This document shows, piece by piece, positions 11,880 through 64,000 of a stretch of DNA of 64,000 bases (within the stretch, counting starts at the first letter, position 1; each line of letters begins with the position of its first letter). The position numbers and the translations under genes were made by a program. This stretch comes from Liolophura sinensis. Taxonomy: Eukaryota; Mollusca; Polyplacophora; Chitonida; Chitonidae. The notes beneath the pieces were generated by a model. The model was not told where the DNA came from. It did no database searches and saw only the letters and a program-made list of their open reading frames with translations. The stretch lies in the NCBI RefSeq assembly GCF_032854445.1, contig NC_088295.1:22057385-22121384 (forward strand). The letters run 5' to 3'.

Positions 11880-13346
11880 TCAGTGAGAGAGCGGTGGCGC
11901 AGGTGGCGGTGGCGGTGGCGGTGGAGGTGGCGGTGGAGGCGGAGGCGGAGGGGGAGGAGGCGGAGGATGTGGGGGTGTTGGAGTGGGTGGGGTGGCACCA
12001 TCGTAGATTGTTGGAGGAGAAGGAGCAGCATTGAGCTGAGAATTATGCTGACTGAGAGGAATGATCACAGGTTCAGTTTCAGCAAACTTCACAGATTTAG
12101 ATTGTCCGCCACCCGACTGTTTGGTAATGGGAACTAACACACCGCCAGATATTGACGGTAACGATTTGGAACTAGCAGATTTGAATAAGCCGGAACTTCT
12201 TGTAAGGCTTTCGTTCAGGTCCGATTCATCATAGTCCGGTGGCGGAAAGACTGGCGGTTCCGGGAAGTCTCCCTCTTGGGAATCTCTCTGCCGAGCACGT
12301 TTCAACCGTGGCACATCCAAAGAGTCGGATACGTCCGGGTTGCTATGAGATCGTCTTCGGATGGCCGCTTTCATCTCCATATGGAGAGAACTCATCACGA
12401 TCCTGCTAGCCGAAACTGTCGGGTTCTCGGATGATGCCTCAGTTACCTGCTCTAGTTTCGACATCGTCTGTGTCGACGGCAGAGTCAGCTTCTTTTTGAT
12501 CGGGGGTGGGGTGGGTGGGCGAGCCCTAGGCATTGGCACGTCTATAACTGTCACCGGAGTGTTATCATCTTCATCTTCTGGCGTTGGCCACTCACGGAAA
12601 GATCTTTTGCTTTTCGGTGGTAGAGGTGGGGGGTCGTTGCTTTCGCTGGTTGGGTATTCAGTAGGCCTGATGACCCTGGCGTATTCTGGCTCTTGCCCAT
12701 GTGGTTTATGGATCCATGACATGTTTACGTCAGTGATTTGGTCCACGGACACAGGCTGAGAGTCAATGCTGGGAATGTCAACAGGAGGGGTTGGAGGACG
12801 TACAGCATTGCTACTAGTCGCTGTTGGCCGAGACAATCTGAACATCATATTCTGGTTGGGGAAGCCTTGAACAGATTGAGAATCAATGCTAGCGGCGTCA
12901 AATGGTGGCGTCGGTGGTCGGGGAGGTTTCTTCGCCAGAGGTGTTGGAGATGGTTTGAGAGGTGTTGGTGGACCAGATGTCTTCTTGGACGGTCGTGGAG
13001 GGGTGGGTGGTCTTGGCGGCTGCGCCACATTCTCTCCTACACTAGCTGAGAAGTTAGTCGTCTGTTTAACGCTGGGGCCGTCAGGTATAGACAGGTGCAC
13101 CTCACTGACGATGTGCTGATCCGGTGGTGGAGAATGCGGAACTGTGTGACCAACATGGTTTGAATTGATGTCATGATCAGGTTTCTTCAAGTCTCGATTG
13201 ATTCTAAGCTGCTCAACAAAAGGCGTATTCAACTCTTCGGTGAAGTAAGGGCGAAGTTCAGCTCCAGTCATAGGTGAATCCGCAGACCTGGAGCGCCGCA
13301 AATTTTCTGGGATGTGTCCTTTGCCTTGTGATCCATTTTCAGCGAC
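11880..13346 (-). CDS. terminal exon: proline-rich cytoplasmic tail of a single-pass membrane protein
   Basis: The exon runs from a 3' splice site (ctggtttttag, minus strand) to a TGA at 11882-11880, 489 codons including the stop, and reads VAENGSQGKG at its start. It is rich in proline and serine. It holds at least four RPPTPP-type motifs, a PPPLPPK motif typical of SH3 ligands, a PPPDYDES stretch resembling PPxY, and basic clusters (KSKR, AAIRRRSHS). Near the C-terminus is an uninterrupted run of 22 prolines, then APPLSH. The run is encoded by mixed CCN codons rather than one repeated codon. Such tails usually bind SH3, WW or EVH1/profilin-type partners at the actin cortex. Phase agrees with the upstream exons. 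The family is not certain; an adhesion receptor such as a cadherin is one possibility. Confidence 0.8.
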   Translation of the reverse strand, partial: VAENGSQGKGHIPENLRRSRSADSPMTGAELRPYFTEELNTPFVEQLRINRDLKKPDHDINSNHVGHTVPHSPPPDQHIVSEVHLSIPDGPSVKQTTNFSASVGENVAQPPRPPTPPRPSKKTSGPPTPLKPSPTPLAKKPPRPPTPPFDAASIDSQSVQGFPNQNMMFRLSRPTATSSNAVRPPTPPVDIPSIDSQPVSVDQITDVNMSWIHKPHGQEPEYARVIRPTEYPTSESNDPPPLPPKSKRSFREWPTPEDEDDNTPVTVIDVPMPRARPPTPPPIKKKLTLPSTQTMSKLEQVTEASSENPTVSASRIVMSSLHMEMKAAIRRRSHSNPDVSDSLDVPRLKRARQRDSQEGDFPEPPVFPPPDYDESDLNESLTRSSGLFKSASSKSLPSISGGVLVPITKQSGGGQSKSVKFAETEPVIIPLSQHNSQLNAAPSPPTIYDGATPPTPTPPHPPPPPPPPPPPPPPPPPPPPPPAPPLSH

Positions 13347-36025: not shown

Positions 36026-37552
36026 TATAAACTACCAGGCAAAAGAAAGGTTTCACCGTATTTTTGTCATAAAAAAATAAAAGCGCGGTTCCGGATTTGA
36101 TTCATCGTTTCCTCTACCAGAGCGCATCGTCACGAACGCAGCAATTGGAATTGTGAAATTGCGATAACATGCAAAACGTCCTTTTGAGGCATGGCTCGTG
36201 ATGCACGTGCGGTAATGTTGCATAAATACTCTTGCTCGAAAGAGCAGACATTCAGTGACCGAAAAAACACCAACAGTATGCCAAGACTTACGCAAGTGCA
36301 ACGAGACCAGGCCATCGGTATGTCCACCATGGGAGTCTCGCAACGTCACATTGCAAGAACGTTCAACTGCAGCCAAACCACCATCAGGAGGTTGTTGATA
36401 CGCTATCAGCAGACAGGCCAGACCCAAGACAGACCAAGATCGGGAAGACCGAGGGTAACAACTGCGGCTGAAGATCGCTACATCCGGCAGATCCACCTCC
36501 GAAACCGATTCGTCACGGCGACGTCAACAGCGGGGACGGCACTAGGCCATGTCATTAGCCCCAGGACAACACTGCATCGTCTTCGTTCAGCTGGTTTACG
36601 ACCTTACCGCCCCTTCCGTAGGATGGCCTTGACCCTTTTACACCGTCAACGCAGATTGCGATGGGCACGTATTGTACGTTAGTGGCAGCGACGTGACTGG
36701 GCGAGAGTGCTGTTTACAGACGAGAGCAGGTTCTGTCTATTCAGGAACGATGGCAGAGTTTTCCGACGAAGAGGCGAGCGTCTCGCGCCAAACTGCGTAA
36801 GAGAGGTTTATCCGTTTGGAGGCGGAGGCGTCATGGTTTGGGGAGGGATTTGTGACCAAATGAAGACGCAGCTGGTTATTGTGCGAGGTAATCTGACTGG
36901 CCAGCGATACCTTGATGAGGTACTGAGACCTGTCGTCGTTCCTTTCCTTTAATGACAGCCAAAAGGATCGATCTTGCAACACGACAACACAAGACCTCAC
37001 ACTGCCCGCATTTTTACAGACTACCTCGAGACCGCAAACGTCATCGTGTTGCCCTGGCCAGCCAACTCACCAGACATGAACCCCATTGACCATCTCTGGG
37101 ATCACCTTGACCGCCGTTTGAGACAGTTGGTGCCTCCTCCAACTAACCAACAGGAACTTGAGCAAGCTCTGTTAAACCTATGGAACGTTACCCCAGCTGA
37201 CGTCATCCGGCGACGGACGACGTCAATACGGAGGCGTGTGCTTGCATGCATTGATGCCCAGGGTGGCCACACTCGCTACTGATGACTGTAGTCCTTCATT
37301 TCTGTGGATACTGTGACTTTACATGCACTTGCCAGTTAACTTTACATTTGTGTATTTTTTTCTTCTGACCCCTTGTCTCTTTCATTGTGTTTTGTAGCCA
37401 ATTGAATGCCAATATTTTAAAGCCTTTTTGAGAGAATATTTCACAATGATTCCTGTTTATAAACCAATCTTCTTGATTCTTACATCTGACTTTGTTTTTG
37501 TTTTATGGGCTCAAGAAGTGGGTGAAACCTTTCTTTTGCCTGGTAGTTTATA
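36026..37552 (+). mobile_element. full-length Tc1/mariner-type DNA transposon
   Basis: Perfect inverted terminal repeats at 36026-36057 and 37521-37552: the left end reads tataaactaccaggcaaaa and then gaaaggtttcacc, and the right end is its exact reverse complement over 32 bp (33 with the next base). The TA-rich ends fit insertion at a TA target. Total length is about 1.53 kb, normal for the superfamily. It contains one transposase frame on the plus strand, broken by nonsense codons. Identical ITRs suggest either recent insertion or recent cross-mobilisation, although the transposase itself is dead. Confidence 0.92.
36278..37282 (+). pseudogene. Tc1/mariner transposase with three nonsense codons
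   Basis: One continuous frame of about 334 codons, the usual length. The N-terminal region MPRLTQVQRDQAIGMSTMGV...ISPRTTLHRLRSAGLRPYRP holds the paired helix-turn-helix and a GRPR hook (SGRPRVT). The catalytic region has FTDESRFCLF (first Asp, codon at 36719), HDNTRPHTAR (second Asp, 36983) and SPDMNPIDHLWD (third acidic residue, 37088). The second and third are separated by 34 residues. Stops are TAG at 36680 (after WARIVR) and adjacent TAA and TGA at 36950 and 36953 (between VVVPFL and QPKGSILQ). No frameshift is needed. The third catalytic residue is Asp where Tc1 proteins have Glu. An upstream in-frame ATG at 36191 is less likely to be the start. Confidence 0.9.
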
Positions 37553-40539: not shown

Positions 40540-40815
40540 CTGTGGACAAACAACAAATGCTGAATGAAGAGTTACAATCATCGTGTGTCAATAGGAGAGG
40601 GGAGAGAACTGGCGTACTGATTTCAACTAAAGCACAAGAAAGACGGGAAATGTGGAGAAAAACAGGTATACGACAAGAAAGAAATATAGAATTTCTTTAT
40701 AGAATTTTTTGTGATTCCTAATACTTTATGTGGGTTTTGGTTGCGTCCGGCGGAGAAATTCAGAATTGGTCTACAAATAGTCACATATCACATGAATAGT
40801 TCCTAATTAACTTAC

Positions 40816-43800
40816 TGGTAAGTGATGCTTTGTTGTCGGGGCCTTCATCCCAACAGGCGCTCCACTCTCTGCTCTATATGTGGTCACATATCCATCATCC
40901 GAGCCCAGGACAACGAAATTTCGATCTTCGGACTGGACAATGCTAGTAGCATAAGCTGTGGCATCGTTGTCTCCTCCCCCGAGCCAGGACGGGTTATAAA
41001 ACATACCGTGTCTGCCAGACTTAGTGATCATCTGGTCACACCTTCCAGTCGGGATATCCCAGAAACACACGCACCTGCGCACACAGAATATCATGGTGTT
41101 TCCGGTATGTGCCACCATGGCTGTCCCCAGAGCAGGGATCTTGCTGAGCTGCCGGTAACAGTGGAGTAGAGTGCCACTGGTGTGGGTCAGGTCTATGGCA
41201 GAGAACCGGTACGGGTGAGGCTGAGGAGCAAAACCGCCTTTCTTCCACTGGCCTTCAATAGACTTTCTGTCTTCTGCTGTGCATTCTACTACAAGGACAA
41301 TGTACCTCTCTGTCCAGCTCAAAAGGGCGTCGACGGTTTTGAAATTCAGTCCCTTCTGGAGCCGAAAACTTCTTGCAAGACGGAGTCTTGGAAGTTCAAA
41401 CTCGTACAACTTAAGTCTTCCCTCGTAGTGGGTTACAACATATAGAGTACATTTATCCTTCGACAAGGTCACCGCCAGAACGTTAGTGGGCATATTAGCG
41501 ATCGTTTCCTTTCCTGTCTCTGAGTGTAAAACTTTCACCATTTCTGAACTTTTACTGAAGACAACCAACAGTTCTGCCTCGCCCCTACAAGCCTTCAGAT
41601 AAGAAGCTATCATGCCACAGGGATAGCATGCACGTAGCTTTCCAGAGCTGATGTCCCATACTTTAATATCCTTACCCCTAGTTGATGTGTACAAACGTTG
41701 GCTGCAAAGAGAAATCTCGACAGTTGTGGCCATCATTTCTTCATAGACACTATCTTTTTGACAGCCAATAGTCAACATTCCTCCCAGTTGTACAAGCTTC
41801 TCTAAGTCCCAAACCTTTAACTGCGTGTTTACAGCACAAGCCACTAAACTGTTCTTCTGAAGTAAGATCTTTTTAACAGAACTATCAAAAGCTTTCACTT
41901 GTCCTATCTGTTCACCGTGATCTAAGCTGTGGAATGTGATGTCGCCGTTTCTTCGACCAAACACTATGGTAGGTACCTCATTGAGCATTACCTGTGCTGA
42001 TAAAACAGCTACAAGCTGTTCATCTTCAGTGTTAAAACAAAACACGTTCTCACCAGTTTCAAGAGAGTAAAGTTGGGCCTTGCTCTCAGAGTTAATTACA
42101 CAGACCACAGTACCATGAACAGACGTAAAAGATTCCATGACCTTTATATAATATTGAAACTCAATAACACGGACAACCCTGAGAGGAGCTAGACCAACAA
42201 CTAACACAGAGCAACTTTTGCAGTCAATTTGGCTCAGCCCAGTCAAATACTCAGAACTCTGTAAAGTTCGCAAAGAGTTAGATGTTAAAGGATGTTGTGT
42301 ATGAACAATTTCGGTTTCTCCTGAAGTCAATGACTTTGTAAGAATTACTCCAAGCTGATCACCCACAGATTTCTTCAAGGCGCCAGTAACAACGAGGTAG
42401 GACCTACCAATATCGATATTCGTTACATCACTCCAATCATTGAGGTTCATTTTTTTCAATGCATTCTTCTATCGTCAGATCCCAAACATCAAACGTGCCA
42501 TTAGAGCTTAACAGTCCTACCAGTCCATGCGTCTGTGAGGACACACAGCTTAGATACACCTCATCATATGTTGAACCAGAGTTTATACGCACTCTGGTGG
42601 ATTCGCCTGTATTGAGATTGTGGGAAATGAGAGATGATTGTGTGAACATGTAAAGCTTACTGTCAGTTAGAATGGGAGGAACCAAACAGTCTGCAGGCTT
42701 TACTTTGTCGAGAACCTCGTGCTCACCGTTGTTGATATTTAACACTGCGGAGACTTCCTCTCCGTCGTCCACTCCTTCTTCCTTTGTGCACAAGTAAGTG
42801 CCATTGCACGCCATCAGTTCCTTGCAGCCCATCATACAGTGTGTTACAACAGTGCTGGACATCTCCCTTGGAGCGAAACAAGAGCCCTCGGGGATAAGCA
42901 ACGGCTCTTTATGATTATAAACACAATGTCTGGCGCGTCTTAGCAACTCGTCCAGGAAAATACATCCGTCCTCACTAGCGACGCCTGCTAGCAAATGTAC
43001 AGCTAAATGCATGGGGTACCTCAAGTCTGCGACAGAGGTATTCATGAATTCTCTTATGGCTTTTATTTCCTTATCTGGTCTTTCTGCCAGGAAGGCGTCC
43101 ATTTCAGCGACAACATGCTGCACAGAAAATGCTGTGATTTTGGTGGTGAGAAAATCATAGTTACAGAACACTTTCTCCTTGGCCATATCCATGGAGACCT
43201 GATACTTGGCATTAATTAAGTGATGTGTAATACATTCCAGCTTCCTTCTATTTTTGGCAATCATGGGCTGATGTGTAACTTGTCTGTCTGCCTTGATAAC
43301 AGTCTTGTTACGCTTTGTAAGCCTTATAGTCCTTTGTACTCCAGAATCGGCTAGAAAAATCCCCAGCATCTTTTTGTGCAAGAGCATTCCTTTATCACCG
43401 GTTAGGTAACGTTCTGTGGCGACTTCAGTGAACTGTCTATGGTACCAGTACATGGTCGTCTTTCCCTGTGACAGTCGCTCTACTAGGTACTCCTTGAGAT
43501 CGTCATATATCCTTGCCCAGAGTAAGGGCGGTATTCGGACAATGCCATCACATGGAGGGTCGTGGAACTGGTAGACATCATCCAACACATAATCATCACA
43601 TGAAAGAGCATCTTCCATTTCAATCTCTGTTATACCGTTCAGAGAAACGGTGATAAATCCAAGAGCCGCCTGAACAAGAATCTGTCCAAACTTTTTCTCC
43701 AGGCTTTCAAAGAGCAGGTGAATGGCAAGGCGTGCGCAGTCTCCGAGTTTCATGTGTGACAGTTGGGTGTAAGAATGCCATGAAGCCGCTTTGTCCAGTA

Positions 43801-44795
43801 AAAGTTTCAAATACAGAGGACAAGGATCATGTTGAAATTTTGAGATCAATATCATCAACTGGTCGTTGGTGAGAGTTCTTTGTTTTGAAGACAAATACTT
43901 GGAAACTATTTCTTTGACAGTAGTTTCTTGTAGAACAGGAACCTGCAAGTAACAGCTGTTTTCAGGAATCCGCTTTCTTGTGTTGCTAAGGATGTTGTGT
44001 TCACTTGGTAGGGTAGAAATAATCATACGGACATTTGCAGGAAGGTTCAGTGGTAACCACTTCATTGTGTAGGCCGAATTAGCAGGGGAAAGTTGATCCA
44101 CAGAGTCAAGCAGGATCACAATAGGCCTTTTGGCTGCAGTGGCAACTCGTCTCAAAAAGCGAGGCATGTATTGAACAAGACTAGCAAAATTCTGATATCC
44201 AACTGGCTCCATGATAATATCGGTGGCATCTGCCAACTGTCCACAGACAGAAAGAAGAACGTCAATACAGATTAATTGTTCCTGGAGATGTACCAAGGAA
44301 GCGAATGGACGCCAATGTAAGGCTTTCCGAACCATTTACCTAGATTCTTCATGAGTAAACGCCATCAGAGAAGTTTTCCCCGCTCCTGACTCTGCATGGA
44401 TGACAAGTGGCTTTCGGTTAGGACTGATCCAAAACATACTTTTTCACAGCCTCAAGGGGTATCTTGTCTGCCACAAAAAGACTCACACTTCGCCACACAA
44501 AAACTGAGATGGTGAATAATTTCATCTGGTTCACTGTAGTACTCGCTGCTCTTGATGAATCTTGTCGATCTTCATAAGCATCATCAATCAGCTGGGTTAT
44601 TTTTTCAGTGAAGAGAGCTTACATGAAATTGACAGATGTATGTTGAAGTGCTCGCTACACTTGCTGACATCAACCCCTCCAGTCCGCCAAGGCAAGCTGA
44701 AATGGAAACAGTTACTTTTTCCCAAGTACTTTTGGGAATGATCTTCCGTGGCCACCGCGGTGAGCTTCTTTTGTGCTTCTGCGTCAACACGACAT
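40816..44795 (-). CDS. NACHT and WD-repeat protein, main exon (NACHT, winged-helix and WD repeats; frame-disrupted)
   Basis: One large exon from a 3' splice site (ttactttttcag) at 44796 to a 5' site (gtaagt) at 40815. In order it encodes a linker (FHFSLPWRTGGVDVSKCSEH), YYSEPDEIIHHLSFCVAKCE, the Walker A motif AESGAGKTSL (44372-44386), RFLGTSPG, Walker B as IVILLDSVDQL (about 44.1 kb) and the RMIISTLPSEH segment. A helical region and a WD series with DVWDLTIEE, LKVWDLEKL, IKVWDISSGK and FWDIPTGRCD follow. The protein is a STAND-class ATPase related to NWD1/NWD2-like proteins, probably cytosolic. The stretch 44335-42437 is open for 632 codons and 42459-40816 for about 548, but they are in different frames and join at a run of seven A (42456-42450). 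Six or more further frame changes lie in 44270-44790. No in-frame nonsense substitution is evident. Confidence 0.85.
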
Positions 44796-46018: not shown

Positions 46019-46239
46019 CTGGACATAAAAATAAATGTTAAGAACCTAAAATGCAAAATTGTTTGTCGCTAAAAAAGGAAGTTCCACTTCTTACATTGAA
46101 AAAAAATCGATACGAATTAGAAGTCACAGAAAACGTTCAGTTCTAGAGAGTAAATACTACACTCGGATGGTGTTTTCTGGTGCTAAATTTTGTATTGTCT
46201 TTTGTCAGCGAAAATTTGTTTGCAATGGCTGTGTCTTAC

Positions 46240-46410
46240 CTGTAAAATATGCTGATGTGGCACGGCATTAGTGTCCAGTCGATACCACTTAGTCAGAAGG
46301 TTTCCGCTCTTTGCGTCCACGAACAATGCTTCACCCAACAAACTCTTGAACTCACTGGAGACAATCTTGTCGGGGATAAGCTGAAAGCCATACCTGTCTC
46401 CCAAAATACA
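46240..46410 (-). CDS. NACHT-WD protein, exon of the N-terminal alpha/beta domain
   Basis: A 171-nt exon (57 codons, phase 0 to phase 0) between ttatttgcag and gtaaga, reading CILGDRYGFQLIPDKIVSSE and on to KWYRLDTNAVPHQHILQ. The LGDRYGFQLIP segment is the familiar 'LG.kYG.rPiP' motif that follows the DMRWGV region in NWD and related STAND proteins. The exon is undisrupted. Confidence 0.85.
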
Positions 46411-46686
46411 CTGCAAATAAGTTGATGTTTTAGTCAACAAAATCTTGAATCGCTCAGTCCTACATATAACTTCAGAACATAAAAATCAGTTGTGAACAAT
46501 TTAAAAAAAAAGAATACTGAATTAATCAGTCCTACAAATAGACTAACAACACAAAAATTGGTTGTGAATAATAGGGAAAAAAACATGACTCAGATGTCAT
46601 TTCACCTTTTCGATGGCCGAGGGGTGACCAGGAGCCTCTCACCAATGCAGCTGCTGTGAGATCAAGTCCAGCTCATGCTCTCCGGT

Positions 46687-49544: not shown

Positions 49545-50698
49545 TTTATCTTCTGAAGGAAATATAACAAGTCGTCAGATGACCATGAAATGTGTGATGA
49601 TATTATTTTTTTATTTAAATGTCGCTTGCGCCTTAATTGATATCATTTCAATAATATGATATGGTAGTAAGACTTATCTTCTGAAGGAAATGTAACAAGT
49701 CGTCAGATGACCATGAAATATGTGATGATATTATTTTTTTATTTAAATGTCGCTTGCGCCTTAACTGATATCATTTCAATAATATGATATGGTAGTAAGA
49801 CTTATCTTCTGAAGGAAATGTAACAAGTCGTCAGATGACCATGAAATGTGTGATGATATTATTTTTTTTATTTAAATGTCGCTTGCGCCTTAACTGATAT
49901 CATTTCAATAATATGATATGGTAGTAAGACTTATCTTCTGAAGGAAATGTAACAAGTCGTAAGATGACCATGAAATATGTGATGATATTATTTTTTTATT
50001 TAAATGTCGCTTGCGCCTTAATTGATATCATTTCAATAATACGATATGGTAGTAAGACTTATCTTCTGAAGGAAATGTAACAAGTCGTAAGATGACAATG
50101 AAATGTCTGATGATATTATTGTTTTATTTAAATGTCGCTTGCGCCTTAACTGATATCATTTCAATAATACGATATGGTAGTAAGACTTATCTTCTGAAGG
50201 AAATGTAACAAGTCGTCAGATGACCATGAAATATTTGATGATATTATTTTTTTATTTAAATGTCGCTTGCGCCTTAATTGATATCATTTCAATAATACGA
50301 TATGGTAGTAAGACTTATCTTCTGAAGGAAATGTAACAAGTCGTAAGATGACCATGAAATGTGTGATGATATTATTTTTTTATTTAAATGTCGCTTGTGC
50401 CTTAACTGATATCATTTCAATAATATGATATGGTAGTAAGACTTATCTTCTGAAGGAAATGTAACAAGTCGTAAGATGACCATGAAATGTGTGATGATAT
50501 TATTGTTTTATTTAAATGTCGCTTGTGCCTTAATTGATGTCATTTAAGTAATACGATTTGGTAGTAAGACTTATCTTCTGAAGGAAATGTAACAAGTCGT
50601 AAGATGACCATGAAATGTGTGATGATATTATTTTTTTTTTAAATGTCGCCTGTGCCTTAATTGATATCATTTAAGTAATACGATTTGGTAGTGAGACT
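49545..50698 (+). repeat. 128-bp satellite, nine units
   Basis: Unit starts (cttctgaagg) fall at 49550, 49678, 49806, 49935, 50063, 50191, 50319, 50447 and 50575, a period of 128 bp with a single 129. Each unit holds gaaatgtaacaagtcgt[c/a]a, gatgatgaccatgaaat-like sequence, a T6-8 run, atttaaatgtcgcttg[c/t]gcc and atatcatttcaataata. The last two units are the most diverged. It sits in the first intron of the NACHT-WD gene and has no open frame of note. Confidence 0.95.
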
Positions 50699-50760
50699 TC
50701 TGAGTGGAGGAAACCTTGTAGACACTGCCATATTCAACAATTTCCAGACTTAAAACGACA

Positions 50761-55495: not shown

Positions 55496-56389
55496 ATGGA
55501 CACCTTTAATGACGACTCTCTCTATACCACTGCCCCCTCCATGGATTTTACATTTGAGGAATCTCAATGTCTCTCTAATACACCGCTAAAAAATGTGCTG
55601 CCAGTTTTCCCAACCCAATATCACGATCCTGAATGGATGCCTACGCCTAAACCTACTACCCCTAATGGCGTCAGACGAACGATCATGGAGGACGTTTCTG
55701 CAGCTGTAGCACAGAGTTTGGACAACAGTAAACAAAAACTGAGGAGCATGAGGTTAGCATTGTCAAGAATTTCTTACCAAGGTCATGCTATTGTACAATT
55801 CAGTATAACATATTTAGTTCGTCAAATACTTCAGACCAATTGACACGTTACGGAGCATACAACCAAACTAGAGATTATTATGCGACTATATAATTTCAGC
55901 TTCAAGCGACAGAGACTGGAAGTCCGACTTAATCATCTCCAGAGGAAAACCTTGGCCTTAAGAGTTCGAGACGAGGCCATCAAGGGACGACACAAACTGT
56001 TACACGATCAACGCTGCAGAATGGCGGAAATCTCCAGTGGAAGTACAATTGATGACAGTTCCTCCGATGTAACAAAAGATAGCAAACGCTTGTTAACATC
56101 GCCAGGGCATGCACTGACCACCTCTCTATCTCATAAACGCCTGGAGAAAATCCACGGCAACAGTGTTGTGAAAAGATCCAGTCACAAGGTCATTTATCGA
56201 CCATCGACTGATGTAATTGAAGATCCTTGTTTCCACATGACGACCATCAGTCGCGAGACCTCGCAAGTCATCTGTCAACAAACAGATGCACCTAGTATTA
56301 CTTACAAACGTGTGCAAAAAGTGAAAAAGACACCCAGCTCACGACTGAAGAGATTTGTGCTGAAGAAACTCAGACTGTTACTTAAATAG
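55496..56389 (+). CDS. small two-exon gene A, unknown family (248 aa)
   Basis: Exon 1 (55496-55752) begins MDTFNDDSLYTTAPSMDFTF and contains SNTPLK and a proline-rich stretch. The intron (55753-55899, 147 nt) starts gttagc and ends taatttcag. Exon 2 (55900-56389) reads SFKRQRLEVRLNHLQRKTLA, a helical, probably coiled-coil segment, then a serine/acid stretch (SSGSTIDDSSSDV), basic residues, and a C-terminus KKTPSSRLKRFVLKKLRLLL. The same architecture and the same intron length occur in copy C, so the model is well supported. It is a small, basic, probably intracellular or nuclear protein. I do not recognise the family. Its donor gttagc is weaker than the gtaaac of copy C. Confidence 0.75.
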
Positions 56390-56577
56390 CTTTCCTGATT
56401 TCTCCCATGGTGCTACTGCTCTTCATAAGGTGGTATGCCCACAGTGCTTATTTCTGTTTGATATGCTTTCAACTTTTTGTATTGCCAACAGCATGCATGG
56501 TACGGAATACAATACACATAGCATATCATCTATATCTTGCTGCATATTTTGCTTACCGTATAACCTTTTATTAATAA

Positions 56578-56578
<1 letters not shown>

Positions 56579-56627
<49 letters not shown>
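56579..56627. repeat. (AT)n microsatellite
   Basis: About 48 bp of AT dinucleotides, 190 bp beyond the stop codon of gene A. Confidence 0.95.
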
Positions 56628-56629
<2 letters not shown>

Positions 56630-56989
56630 GAGAGGTGGTCGCTTGGTTACTCATCGCTTCACTAGTAAAGAGAAAATGACAAACAGCAGCGGCCGACGTA
56701 CTACAAAGCTATGCTACTATATAACTAATTACGAAATCACATAACCTTGGCCCCACTTGTGATATAGCTCCGTCGGGTGGTGTTATTTGTTTTCCAACTT
56801 TCTTAGTTTCCAATAATGCTTCTGTCTTGGACACGCCATCATTCAAATGGGACTTAACAGAACAACATTAGGGTAAGACAATCTATCAGACTGACTCTAA
56901 ATGAAGCCGAACATGTCACGCTCTTTTATATAAGAGGTCTTTTTTTGTTACCCATAATATCTGAAAGAAAAACTAAAAATTTAAAATTT

Positions 56990-57965
56990 GCTCTGCAAAT
57001 ACAAAATTTCTCTGCCAAAGCCTCTAGATATCACTTGTCAACAAAACCCCTCAGTGGTGTTCTTTAGTCCACTGATAGACACTGCACTCCACACCCGAGT
57101 TTCTAAACTTGATAACAAAGTTTATATCAAAACAAAGACCTTAGATCATATTGACAAATACTACAATGTTCATCTCAACGTCTCTTCCAGTGAACTAGTT
57201 ACAATCACAACTGCACTACAATGGATTCCTGAGAACAAACCAAACTGAGTAGCCATATTAAGCGCCTCTCTCAACGGAATAATTTCCATCAAAAAAAAAT
57301 CTGAGAGTAGATCAGACATCCTGCAAGAAATAGAAATTCTAACAACCGAAATACAAAAACAAAAAATAAACTAACTCTAGTATAGCTACCAGTGCACGTG
57401 AACATACGATGGAATGAAATTGCCGACCAGGCGAAAAAACGACCCTTCATAAAAATCAACAGGACATAGATACCCTTTTCAGTCAAGCAGAAATCGATAG
57501 ATTGATCAACGGCCTAATAACCTCCTAGTGGAAAGACGAAGGGGTTGAAGAATCCCGCAGACGATGGCTCTGTAAAATATTAGACGGAAAGATTATTAAA
57601 TCAAATTCGTTCCTATTACCAAATAAACAATATCATGAAAATACATCACGCCCGTCACGAGGGAAAACGAAACTTAAAGCACTTCTGGCAATTGTGATCC
57701 CGCAATTCTTCTCTCACTTACCCAGCCTGTCAGGAACACTATAAACAATAGAGCATTATCTCCTGCAGTGCATCAAACATAACAAAGAATGAAAAGTATA
57801 TGCACAAAGCCTAAAAACACACAACTTGAACTTCAGACTATACTTCATTCCAAACCACATCTCAGAACACAAATATTCACCTAACTATGAATGACACATC
57901 TAAATATATTCCAACTACGCTTTGCGAAATAATCGAAACTATATATCAGCAACAGCGTTACCACG
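56990..57965 (+). mobile_element. decayed non-LTR retrotransposon 3' end (RNase H and zinc-knuckle-like tail)
   Basis: Reading across several frames gives RVSKLDNKVYIK, NVSSSELVTITTALQW, VAILSASLNGI, WLPVHVNIRWNEIADQ and HYLLQCIKHNKE. These follow the order of the RNase H domain and the terminal cysteine/histidine motif of I/Jockey-like elements, whose intact forms read TDGSK, AELxAI, ILSDS, HxGIxGNExAD and EhxLxxCxxH. The first and third catalytic Asp positions appear replaced, and there are many stops and shifts. No upstream reverse transcriptase was recognised, so it is a dead 5'-truncated copy. Confidence 0.6.
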
Positions 57966-57974
57966 ATTTTAAGG

Positions 57975-58710
57975 ACGGTATTATGTGTACGACTGCCGTC
58001 AGTTTCTAAATTTAGCTTGCCACTGTTTACATATGCTGAGTTCAGCGCCTGCTGTCTGCCTCTACCTTAGAATATTCCAGAATGCGCTCAGTTCGGTGCC
58101 TGTTTGATTACATCAAGTGTTCAGGAATTTTCTTATTCTAGACAATTCCACCAGGCTATATAAGACCTATGAAAGCAGGTCAAACGGAGAGAAAAGAGAA
58201 TTATTGAGAGTTTGGATGCTTTTGCTGTGTATTACTTTAGTAGGCCTTTTGTGCTGAATTTTGGTGTCTCTATAGCCTCTGGCTTTGTTATGTCCTATCT
58301 CCACCGAGCACTTGTTCAGTCTGAACTTCTATGTTTAATTTGTGCTCTTGTATACACAGTGCTTATTAGTATACGGACCCTGTCTGTGGAATTTTGTGTA
58401 TATTTCGTCATACACTCAGTTATACTGTGGATTTTCCCTCTTGTGAATTTGCCTCTGAGCATTTATGCCTGTGTGGTATATATTGTGGAATATATGCGTC
58501 CGTTCGGACTTGACACCGTAAGTACTTTAGTATTTGTATAGATACTGCTATCCTTTCTTGTAAAACGTAAGTACTTTAGCATTTGTATAAGTCTTATTAT
58601 CTGTTCTTGTTAAAGCCAATAAATTGTTGTAAAATAAAATCTGCTGGTTTTGGTTACTTTTTTGTGCGGCTAAACTGTCGTGTATTTCGAACAAGCCATC
58701 TCTTTATATA
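57975..58710 (+). mobile_element. LTR-like promoter/polyadenylation unit
   Basis: It contains a TATA box (tatataag, 58157-58164), a leader (acggagagaaaagagaat), then about 430 bp later a degenerate 50-bp duplication (gtaagtactttag at 58518 and 58567) and AATAAA at about 58618. A TATA box and poly(A) signal within 500 bp of non-coding sequence recall a solo LTR. The ends were not defined and no target duplication was found. A 109-codon hydrophobic frame (58212-58541) lacks an ATG near its start and is probably chance. Confidence 0.3.
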
Positions 58711-58734
58711 ATACAGACAGTTTGGGTCGTAACA

Positions 58735-58761
58735 GTATGTTGCTCTGATATTACGTCACTA
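58735..58761 (+). repeat. 27-bp direct repeat, copy 1
   Basis: gtatgttgctctgatattac plus gtcacta; recurs at 58831-58857 with one mismatch. Confidence 0.85.
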
Positions 58762-58830
58762 CAATCTAATATATGCACAAAAACCCCCAAGCATATTAAT
58801 TTCATCGGCGATACTTTGATCTTGAAAGCC

Positions 58831-58857
58831 GTATGTTGCTCAGATATTACGTCACTA
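58831..58857 (+). repeat. 27-bp direct repeat, copy 2, at the breakpoint of gene B
   Basis: gtatgttgctcagatattac plus gtcacta. Homology to gene C begins at the very next bases (58858). Confidence 0.85.
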
Positions 58858-59254
58858 GTCATCAGAGTTACATGATCAGCACATAAGATTAGCGGCCAAC
58901 TCCAGCAGAAGTTCCATCGATGACAGCTCTGGTGAGGAAGCCCCAGATACCAAACGTTTGTTGTTGTCATCAGGGCGTACTCTGCCCACCTGGCGTTCTC
59001 AGAGACAGTTGGGGAAATTTCGTCGCAACAGTGTGGTAAGAAGGGCCAGTGACAAGAGACTTCGCCGATCACCGTCTGCTCTGAACAGGGCTCCGTCTCT
59101 CTGTCGGACGGCCAGGAGCCCCGAACCTGTCCAAATCAGCTTTGTGCAGACAGATCAATCCCGCTTGATCAACAAGCCTGTGCAGAGAGTGAAAAAGACA
59201 CCCAGCTTACGGCTGAAGAGATTCGTGCAGAAGAAGCTGAAGATAATTCTCTAA
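58858..59254 (+). pseudogene. small gene B: truncated copy lacking exon 1 and the start of exon 2
   Basis: From 58858 the sequence matches exon 2 of gene C (about 61475 onward). The reading frame from HIRLAANSSRSSIDDSSG to KKTPSLRLKRFVQKKLKIIL and the TAA at 59254 is intact over about 125 residues with roughly nine replacements. Exon 1, the intron and about 90 nt of exon 2 are absent; retrotransposon-like sequence and a 27-bp direct repeat take their place. A one-base deletion near 58864 relative to C lies at the edge. Without a start codon it is most likely a pseudogene, unless a new upstream exon has been captured. Confidence 0.8.
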
Positions 59255-60636
59255 CAGTTTTCCCGGTCCTTTTCAGTAAAGCCAATGTTGTTCAGGGCGT
59301 GCTACAAACTGTGCTATGCGGAAAGTGCTTTCCGATTTTTTATGTTTACTACGTTTTATGTTAAGTACACGTTTACATGCTACAGATATATATGTATATG
59401 CGTTTACGTGAGAGAATAAACTTTTCAAACGCACGTGTGTTTTTCTCTTAATTATGTGTCTTATTCATATTTAGTCACATACAGGCATGGTTACAGAGAA
59501 TGCAAGGTAAATGAAGAGAGGTTAGGTCATTTTCATTTCGTCTATCCACCATTTCTTGAAACAATAATTCGTAATCAAAATGACGTAAATATAAAAAGTG
59601 ATCTCCGAAACTGCTACGGTTTCAAGACATTTTAGCGGCAAGATTGAAAGCAAATCTTCTGTCAGTGTTATTCAACAGAAGTTTTCATTTATTATCTTCT
59701 TATCACCATTACAGAGTGAATCCGGCTGTCAAAAACCACAACTCATTTGTTATGACACGTTCATTATCAGTAGGAATTCAGCTTTACTGGTAAAACGCTG
59801 CAGGAGGAGAACGGTCTTATTCCAACGCAAGCATTCTTAACCTGTCACTTCATGGGAACTGTGAAAGTCTATAAGATAAACAGCAGGTGTGAGCTCATGT
59901 GATCCCTGAAAGTGCCTCAAGACCTTTAAGAATGAACGATATTAGTTTCTTCATCAATCTGATATATTCAGGTTTAAGTAGATGTCATATACAGTATATA
60001 TATACGCGAAAGTGGTATTCTTTTCTGTGTTATACCTATTTCAGAAATGCTGTATAAATTATAATCACATTGTTGGTATAGCATTAGAAATCAAACAGGT
60101 TTTTGCGAATTGTTTATATGTCAGCTACTTTAAAATTTTTGTAAATTGTTTAGTTGTTGTGTTTTGCGGGCTAAATCGGGTGTCAGGTACGTCTCAAACT
60201 CTCAAGCACCATAATTCATGTTGAATATACTCCTTTAGGTTCAGCGCTACATATTACAGTAGTAAACACATCTCTGCAACATCTGACAATGCATCTGTTT
60301 ATTTATAATTTTAAGAAGTAACCATTACCACAACCAGTTTAACTTGCTTAAACGTGAACATAAAGTCTACCACTGTATATACATAGAAAAAATTGATTAT
60401 ATGATACAGTTGTCACAGAAAAATATATAAAAAAATTCTGTAATGTTTTGAAAGCAGAGAAGATGAAATTCAGCATTGGGGATATGACACGGACGGACAA
60501 TTTACAACCTCTAGCCATGTTGTCGAGGCCCTTATATACATGGCCAATCACTAGCGCTGAAACCGTCAGGTTATATTTGGCTGTGAAGTCAAAAAAGCTA
60601 TCAGCTCTCGATTGTCAGTGTGGTTTCTAATAGTGG
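59255..60636 (+). repeat. 3' flank of gene B, duplicated downstream of gene C
   Basis: The flank aligns along its whole length with 61870-63239, with small indels and scattered substitutions. It includes a consensus AATAAA at 59415-59420, 161 nt after the stop. The duplication therefore covers gene plus about 1.4 kb of flank. Confidence 0.85.
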
Positions 60637-60966
60637 TTTTCCAATCATGGAACAGTATATCTCACTCTGTTGAACATCAAAGACAGCTCAGTAATCGTCA
60701 TCAATTTATTATTACAGAGAATGGATAGATTACTGACTCGCTGCGGGTGATACACAGGTATGATTTTGAGTTAAGCCATTTCTGTCACCAACAAAGGTGG
60801 AATTCCCTGATGAGATGAGCAGCAGGTGTTAACTCAGATCGTCACTTGAAATCGTGCATGAAACAAAGTGCCCCGCTGAGAAGGCTTCTATAAAACAAGA
60901 CTTTTCACAGCCAATTCTTACATTATCTCATCACCGATTGCTGAGATCAGTCATTTCCATACGAGT
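60637..60966 (+). promoter_or_regulatory. upstream region of gene C
   Basis: It begins with 'ccaatcatggaacagtatat', which recurs at the window end (63957 onward), and contains a TATA box TATAAAA at 60889-60895, about 75 bp upstream of the start codon. This is a good RNA polymerase II core promoter candidate. Confidence 0.5.
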
Positions 60967-61869
60967 ATGGACAGTTTCAACGACGATTCTCTACAAACCA
61001 CTGCCTCCTCCATGGATTTTACCTTTGAAGAACCTCAATGTTTTACAAGTACACCGCTAAAAGTGGCTCCGGATTTTCTCCCAGAAGCAGCCAACCCCAA
61101 CCCCAATGGCTTACCACCTCCAAAGCCTACTGCACCTAAACCCAGGACCGTTATCAGACGTTTGACCATGAATGAGATCACGACTGCTTTGTCACAGAAT
61201 TCGGACACAACAGAACGAAGACTGAGAATATTGAGGTAAACACTTAGTGTATATCAGTAGTTTAAACTGTGCACATTTCTGTGGGGCGAGAGTAGGGAGA
61301 TTGATCCTTTTGGCATTTATTACCGTCGATGTACAACCAAACCCAAAAGAATATTAAAAGCTTCTGTCTTTTTTCATTTCAGTTTTAAACGTCAGAGACT
61401 ACAAGTACGACTCGATCATCTGCAGAGAAAAACCCTGACCTTGAGCGCTCGAGACGAGGCCATCAAGAGACGTCATGCAGAGTTACATGATCAGCGCATA
61501 AGATTGGCGGCCAACTCCAGCGGAAGTTCCATCGATGACAGCTCTGGTGATGAAGCCCTAGATACCAAACGTTTGTTGCTGTCATCAGGGCGTACTCTGC
61601 CCACCTGGCGTTATCAGAGACAGTTGGGAAAATTTCGCCGCAAGAGTGTGGTAAGAAGGGCCAGTGACAAGAGAGTTCGCCGATCACCGTCTGCTCTTAA
61701 CAGGGCTCCGTCTCTCTGTCGGACGGCCAGGAGCCCCGAACCTGTCCAAATCAGCTTTGTGCAGACAGATCAATCCCGCTTGATCAACAGACCTGTGCAG
61801 AGAGTGAAAAAGACACCCAGCTTACGGCTGAAGAGATTCGTGCAGAAGAAGCTGAAGATGATTCTCTAA
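60967..61869 (+). CDS. small two-exon gene C, unknown family (251 aa)
   Basis: Exon 1 (60967-61235) begins MDSFNDDSLQTTASSMDFTF and holds TSTPLK, a P-rich stretch and RRLTMNEITTALSQ. The intron (61236-61382, 147 nt, gtaaac to catttcag) matches gene A's intron in position, phase and length. Exon 2 (61383-61869) has SFKRQRLQVRLDHLQRKTLT (helical), an SSGSSIDDSSGDE acidic serine cluster typical of casein kinase 2 sites, many RR/KR pairs, and the C-terminus KKTPSLRLKRFVQKKLKMIL. A TATA box lies 75 bp upstream and a variant poly(A) signal ATTAAA lies at 62025-62030. The most conserved parts among copies are the N-terminal MDFTFEE region and the last 20 residues. No known family was recognised. Confidence 0.85.
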
Positions 61870-63239
61870 CAGTTTCCACGGTCCTTTTCAGTAAAGCCAA
61901 TGTTGTTCAGGGCGTGCTACAAACTGTGCTATGCGGAAAGTGCTTTCCGGTTTTTTTATGTTTACTACGTTATATGTTAAGAACACGTATACAAGTTATA
62001 GATGTATATGGGTTTATGTGAGAGATTAAACTCTACAAACGCACGTGTGTTTTTCTCTTAATTATGTGTCTTATTCATATTTAGTCACATACAGGCATGG
62101 TTACAGAGAATGCAAGGTAAATGAAGAGAGGTTAGGTCATTTTCATTTCAGCATCTTTTCAAACAATAATTCGTTCTCGAAATGAGGTAAATATAAAAAG
62201 TGATCTCCGAAACTGCTACGGTTTCACGACATTTTAGCGGCAAGATTAAAAGCAAATCTTCTGTCAATATTATTCAACAGAAGTTTTCATGTATTATCTT
62301 CTAATCACCATTACAGAGTGAATCCGCCTGTCAAAAACCACAACTCATTTGTTATGACACGTTCATTATCAGTAGGAATTCAGCTTTACTGTTAAAACGC
62401 TGCAGGAGGAAGACGGTCTTATTCCAACGCAAGCATTCTTAACCTGTCACTTCATGGGAACTGTGAAAGTCTATAAGATAAACAGCAGGTATGAACTCAT
62501 TTCATCCCTGAAAGTGTCTCAAGACTTAAAGGAATGAACGATATTAGTTTCTTCATCAATCTGATGTATTTAGATTTTAGTAGATGTCACATACAGTATA
62601 TATACGCGAAAAAGGTATTCTTTTCTGTGTTATACCTATTTCAGAAATGCTGCATATATTATAATCACATTGTTGGTATAGCATTAAAAATCAAACAGGT
62701 CTTTGCAAATTGTCTATATGTCAGCTACCTTTAAATTTTTGTAAATTGTTTGGTTGTTGGGTATTACGGGCTAAATCGGGTGTCAGGTACGTCTCAAACT
62801 CTCAAGCACCATGATTTATGTTGAATATACTCCTTTAGGTTCAGCGCTACATATTACAGTAGTAAAAACATCTCTGCAACATCTGACAATACATCTGTTT
62901 ATTTAGAATTTTATAAGGAAATAACCATTACCACAACCAGTTAAACTTGCTTTAACGTGAACATAAAGTCTACCACTGTATATACAAAGAAAAAATTGAT
63001 ACAAGATACAGTTGTCACAGAAAAATATGTCAAAAAAATTGCATACAGTTTTGAAAGCAAAGAAAATGAAATTCAGCATTGGAGACATGGCACTGACGGA
63101 CAATTTACAACCTCTAGCCATGTTGTCGAGGCCCTTATGAACATGGCCAATCACTAGCGCTGAAACCGTCAGGTTATATTTGGCTGTAAAGTCAAAAAAG
63201 CTATCAGCTCTCGATTGTCAGTGTGGTTTCTAATAGTGG
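61870..63239 (+). repeat. 3' flank of gene C, paired with 59255-60636
   Basis: Nearly collinear with the flank of gene B up to 'ctaatagtgg', where the two copies part. The poly(A) hexamer here is ATTAAA instead of AATAAA. Confidence 0.85.
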
Positions 63240-63950
63240 ATAGACATACATCGATGTAATAAAATGGATTTTGCGGTTAGTTTAAGATTTAAACTGACAC
63301 ATTGTGGGATACACATTTATGAGCAGGGAACTGAGAACGGTTCTGTGTGTCACAAAGCCCACACGTTGGACAGGATACTGTCGTAATTTGTCAGGGCGAG
63401 CTGGCAAGAAAATCAGGCGTTTTTGATTGTTTTTTCTCCTTGTCACAATGTTTAATATCGATGGTACAGGAGAGCTCCTACGTTTTGTGACGTCGATCAA
63501 GATAGCTATAACATGACAAAATGGCCTCTCCAAATGAGTGTCTAGGTACTGACGATTGTTTGCTGTTTATTTTGTCGAAAAGCTGTGTAGAATTGTTAAA
63601 ATATTTTAGAACATTTCCGGAATACTAGTTTATTAATTAATTCAGCTTGAAACATCTATAAATCCAATTATTATTATTTCTTTTCATTGTGCTTGTCAGG
63701 GCTTCCAGAAACCTGAAGATAATCAATGATCTACCTGGTTTTCCCCCAACTTATCGCTGACGGCATCGTACGAGTGAAGTATTCTTCAGAATAGCGAGGA
63801 ACATCAATTTGATCACCAATAAATATTATTTCTTTTAAATTTCAGTTGATCGCATTATCTTTGTCCATGAGGTGAAACGCAAAACAAGCTGTCAGACTTG
63901 CAAGCAGGTCTTGTCTCATTCGAAAGACACTTCGATTAGAGATTATCCTC
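63240..63950. other. 711-bp segment present after gene C but not after gene B
   Basis: Copy B passes directly from 'taatagtgg' (ending 60636) to 'ccaatcatggaacag', while copy C has about 711 bp between the same sequences. The segment includes a degenerate dispersed element (63697-63828). It is either an insertion in C or a deletion in B. Confidence 0.7.
63697..63828 (-). repeat. dispersed mollusc short element, copy 7 (degenerate)
   Basis: The reverse complement shows 'tattggtgatcaaattgatg', 'ttcactcgtacgatgccgtc' and 'gggggaaaaccaggtagatc', a diverged version of the common element. Confidence 0.45.
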
Positions 63951-64000
63951 TTTTTCAATCATGGAACAGTATATCTCACTCTGTTCAACATCTAAGACAG
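63951..64000 (+). repeat. start of a probable further tandem unit
   Basis: 'atggaacagtatatctcact' followed by 'ctgtt.aacatc.aagacag' repeats the sequence at 60646-60690 that precedes the promoter of gene C, with two mismatches. By analogy a fourth gene copy would start about 280 bp beyond the window end. Confidence 0.6.

Follow-up and report, generated by a model that had tools for sequence, protein, structure and literature searches.

Among described proteins, the helical region of Nup54 (PF13874) bears a weak similarity to the locus described here, which extends over the helix (residues 86-134) of only one of its two intact products, that of copy C (E 0.052 with the whole sequence, 0.011 with a fragment). 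The match reaches 14-16 bits (best 16.3) against a cut-off of 30.5, copy A gives none and no other feature of Nup54 was found; the match is taken as a generic coiled-coil similarity. Leucine-zipper and bZIP-type proteins provide another comparison, as the helices of both copies likewise carry six hydrophobic residues at heptad spacing, an arrangement matched by 75 of 2000 shuffles for A and 60 of 2000 for C. However, polar residues predominate at the partner heptad positions, a basic-region signature was not seen by eye, and a bZIP model is absent among the Pfam matches listed for the whole sequences and their fragments. The helical moment of the long helix does not exceed that of shuffled sequences, and the amphipathicity of the C-terminus is matched by about 10% of shuffles.

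A further resemblance is to clients of the dynein light chain LC8 (DYNLL). PMC3078936 gives the client motif as [D/S]K x [T/V/I] Q [T/V] [D/E] and places it in disordered segments, often flanked by a coiled coil. The A and C proteins likewise pair a helix with a QTD triplet that lies in the tail predicted to be disordered, although against the motif as given there C fits at VQTD only and A at QTD only.

The locus occupies the end of the 64,000-nt stretch of Liolophura sinensis DNA that was analysed (the window) and contains two genes of two exons each, both intact and on the plus strand, A (55496-56389, 248 codons) and C (60967-61869, 251 codons), each encoding a basic protein of approximately 28 kDa (Table 1). 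The two proteins are identical at 128 of 247 aligned columns, and in tblastn searches within the window A retrieves C with E=1.2e-45 and C retrieves A with E=4.6e-61. The first-pass annotation had described small two-exon genes sharing an intron of exactly 147 nt in the same phase, and this is borne out, both introns being in phase 2 with GT-AG boundaries. The equal length may nevertheless be a coincidence, since the introns share almost no sequence: their local alignment score is matched by 2 of 300 shuffles and derives from a single stretch of about 25 nt. In global alignment, by comparison, the coding exons are 75% and 69% identical at the nucleotide level, with local scores matched by 0 of 300 shuffles each, while the score for the 3'UTR is matched by 69 of 300.

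Upstream of the genes, the local score of A against C is unremarkable (matched by 28/300 shuffles), but none of 500 shuffles and none of 288 unrelated window pairs attains the global score over 300 nt, which is taken as weak evidence that A and C share some upstream sequence. Candidate signals were located around copy C, with a TATAAA 78 nt 5' of the start codon and an ATTAAA 155 nt 3' of the stop, and copy B has an AATAAA at 59415. For copy A, TATAAA is absent from the 300 nt upstream, and neither AATAAA nor ATTAAA occurs in the stretch scanned 3' of the stop.

Table 1. Positions in the window of the exons, introns, repeat units and candidate signals of the tandem locus
Feature	Position	Strand	Remarks
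Copy A exon 1	55496..55752	+	85 complete codons and 2 nt; conserved N-terminal block, then Pro-rich linker, then (predicted) helix start
Copy A intron	55753..55899	+	147 nt, phase 2, GT..AG
Copy A exon 2, including stop	55900..56389	+	(predicted) helix, Ser/Asp cluster, linker, basic C-terminal block
B unit of tandem repeat	58858..60636	+	93% identical to 61472-63239, direct repeat
Copy B, limited to the 3' portion of exon 2	58868..59254	+	128 codons + stop
TATAAA, candidate promoter element	60889..60894	+	78 nt 5' of copy C start codon
Copy C exon 1	60967..61235	+	
Copy C intron	61236..61382	+	147 nt, phase 2, GT..AG
Copy C exon 2, including stop	61383..61869	+	
C unit of tandem repeat	61472..63239	+	
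ATTAAA, candidate poly(A) signal	62025..62030	+	155 nt 3' of copy C stop
Repeat-unit restart	63951..64000	+	matches 60637-60686 (upstream of C) at 94% identity over 50 nt

Besides A and C, tblastn detects one further copy in the window, B (58868-59251), the homology of which to the C unit starts at 58858. Its reading frame runs for 131 codons from stop to stop without an in-frame Met and, as it begins inside exon 2, it carries neither exon 1 nor the helix; copy B is a truncated version of the C unit and likely a pseudogene. A 27-nt direct repeat (58735-58761 and 58831-58857, 96% identical), the second copy of which ends exactly where the B homology begins, may mark how the truncation came about. 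Because the repeat unit restarts 50 nt from the window's end, a further copy is predicted with its ATG near 64281, outside the window, and the array probably continues in that direction. A 711-nt segment (63240-63950) that lies between the C unit and this restart has no counterpart at the corresponding position behind the B unit, and may represent either an insertion after the C unit or a deletion after the B unit; neither a target-site duplication nor a terminal repeat was obvious there by eye. Copy A is, judging from the alignments, the older copy, its non-exon sequence being nearly unalignable with that of C apart from the weak upstream similarity.

Other parts of the window carry further features, of which the NWD1-type domain and the transposase point to an animal genome. 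An NWD1-like NACHT/WD-repeat gene lies on the minus strand at 40807-44335, with an HTH_NWD1 match at E 1.2e-13, a weak NACHT match and WD/beta-propeller matches, and a further likely exon of it was placed by eye at 46183-46485. Pieces of a Tc1/mariner-type transposase are found on the plus strand at 36188-37282 (HTH_Tnp_Tc3_2, E 2.9e-10; DDE_3, E 1.7e-7), a tandem array of a 128-nt unit in 9.0 copies with 96% matches at 49546-50699, and a proline-rich open frame of 488 codons without a Pfam match on the minus strand at 11880-13346. Searches of the window with Rfam returned no match, and ARAGORN, run with the bacterial code, returned no tRNA.

Copies A and C form a real gene family with a reading frame under purifying selection. 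Their dN/dS, calculated by the Nei-Gojobori method with our own script, is 0.39 (bootstrap interval 0.26-0.55) at a dS of about 0.85, which nears the values at which the method becomes imprecise. The ratio was among the checks proposed in the first-pass annotation, and it does not lie near one; the reading of A and C as chance frames was rejected on this ground. Differences between the copies number 75, 62 and 102 at codon positions 1, 2 and 3, respectively. Along the alignment, dN/dS is 0.16 over columns 1-32, 0.80 over 33-70, 0.26 over 71-140, 0.51 over 141-230 and 0.20 over 231-252.

The motifs that had been noted in the first-pass annotation, namely an MD(T/S)FNDDSL..MDFTFEE block, a helical segment, a Ser/Asp cluster and a KKTPSxRLKRFVxKKL end, are all present in both copies. 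Identity between A and C, in C coordinates, is 25/32 for residues 1-32, 8/27 for 33-63, 8/26 for 64-89, 34/46 for 90-135, 15/23 for 136-158, 16/51 for 159-209, 4/16 for 210-225 and 18/26 for 226-251, and the range seen in a 25-column window is matched by only 19 of 5000 permutations. There are thus three conserved blocks, the N-terminus (78%), the central helix (74%) and the C-terminus (69%), separated by linkers at about 30%. The earlier picture of conserved ends around a variable middle holds for the ends but not for the middle, in which the central helix is conserved as strongly as either end, and the accompanying suggestion that selection acts on two short terminal motifs gives way to one of three constrained blocks.

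AlphaFold, run on exon 2 with three sequences, predicts a confident helix of 44 residues (2-45) with a block pLDDT of 90-95 and a second helix at 147-160, most of residues 53-131 being of low confidence (mean pLDDT 65, pTM 0.26). For exon 1, with two sequences, a helix is predicted with less confidence at residues 68-88 (block means 74, 73 and 59), with no structure ahead of it. As the exons were folded separately, the models suggest, rather than display, a single helix of about 65 residues spanning the exon junction, and they point to a partly disordered protein; its one long helix is kept by selection. Short motifs common to A and C are TPLK at residue 29, KRLL at 148/152, the QTD triplet and the Ser/Asp cluster. 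KKTPSxRLKRFVxKKL occupies an equivalent position in A and C and resembles a bipartite nuclear-localisation signal, a loose pattern that arises in 266 of 1000 shuffles of A and 437 of 1000 of C.

The genes had been reported as belonging to no recognisable family, and the searches agree, with no significant match in Pfam, NCBIfam, PDB, IMG/VR or GTDB. In Pfam, the whole A and C sequences and six fragments gave nothing above the curated cut-off, and up to E 10 only Nup54, as above, and RNase_Y_N (E 0.074 and 0.068), both limited to the helix of C, without a counterpart in A and far under the cut-off. PDB returned two matches for the copy C sequence (best E 1.1), none for the exon 2 profile and six for the exon 1 profile (best E 0.25), none of them significant. 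No significant relative was found in NCBIfam with whole A and C, and no pattern stretch was confirmed in IMG/VR (exon 2 of C, 28 stretches) or in GTDB genomes (exon 2 profile, 231 stretches); of these collections, only Pfam and PDB are informative for an animal gene, since IMG/VR and GTDB exclude animal genomes by design and the NCBIfam models are prokaryotic. A literature search for peptide strings returned no paper.

We lean, tentatively, towards a small tandem family, with A and C intact, B truncated and the array probably extending past the window, the products of which would be nuclear or intracellular adaptors. This account builds on the gene structure, purifying selection and three constrained blocks described above, and on a predicted helix. 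The modules would run from an acidic docking block through a Pro-rich linker and the long helix to a Ser-rich, disordered tail and, last, a C-terminal helix that is basic. The acidic N-terminal block with its TPLK site would dock a second protein, the long helix would pair with itself or with a partner, and the basic C-terminal helix could act as a nuclear-localisation element or contact nucleic acid or membrane, while phosphorylation at the Ser/Asp cluster and the TP sites might tune the adaptor. We infer dimerisation, nuclear location, phosphorylation and the adaptor role for the A and C proteins, each of which would be a fast-evolving adaptor, probably nuclear, that acts through its helix and carries short docking motifs.

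It is also possible, if somewhat doubtful, that A and C represent a lineage-restricted animal family without described relatives, expanding in tandem, in which the 32-residue acidic N-terminal block, the long helix and the basic C-terminal helix would be three new, separately constrained binding modules. The possibilities of an undescribed family and of divergence within a known one carry comparable weight. Kinetochore, cohesion-protection and cell-cycle coiled-coil proteins diverge fast, and a highly diverged member of such a family, beyond the reach of the profiles searched and itself rather unlikely, would combine a coiled-coil-like helix with a disordered basic tail, as here, and would fit the conserved proline-directed TPLK site, the KRLL that resembles a cyclin-docking motif and an RQRLxVRL(N/D) sequence reminiscent of a destruction box. 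Short motifs of these types are, however, common by chance, shugoshin, geminin and borealin models are absent among the Pfam matches listed, and nothing but the sub-threshold Nup54 and RNase_Y_N matches appears there up to E 10.

That the proteins are LC8 clients, with the light chain gluing the helix-containing protein into a dimer at its C-terminal QTD, is improbable. The triplet is common to both copies (SFVQTD in C, ICQQTD in A) and falls within the region predicted to be disordered, but a three-residue match is weak; A carries a Q at -1, outside the motif, both copies lack K at -3 and D/S at -4, and only 4 of the 16 positions around QTD are identical between A and C.

Decaying tandem pseudogenes, or frames without function, are highly improbable. 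Copy B is truncated, its dN/dS against C is 0.46 with an uninformative interval of 0.16-1.43 that is compatible with neutrality, and its divergence from C differs only marginally between coding sequence (15/387 sites) and flank (87/1365; Fisher p=0.066), but A and C keep open reading frames and can be spliced, their dN/dS is well under one, and their aligned exons contrast with an intron and 3'UTR near background. A host-captured gene of viral or transposon origin is just as improbable, for although the array is surrounded by transposon-like sequence and a Tc1/mariner-type element lies elsewhere in the window, the intron is conserved and none of the 28 IMG/VR stretches was confirmed as a relative.

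Returning to the tandem family, A and C belong to a real gene family that is probably lineage-restricted and fairly ordinary. Many such orphan families exist in animal genomes, and one without assigned expression or function is therefore unsurprising in kind. If truly undescribed, it would add to the lineage-restricted families that expand in tandem, with constrained modules that are defined and amenable to direct tests.
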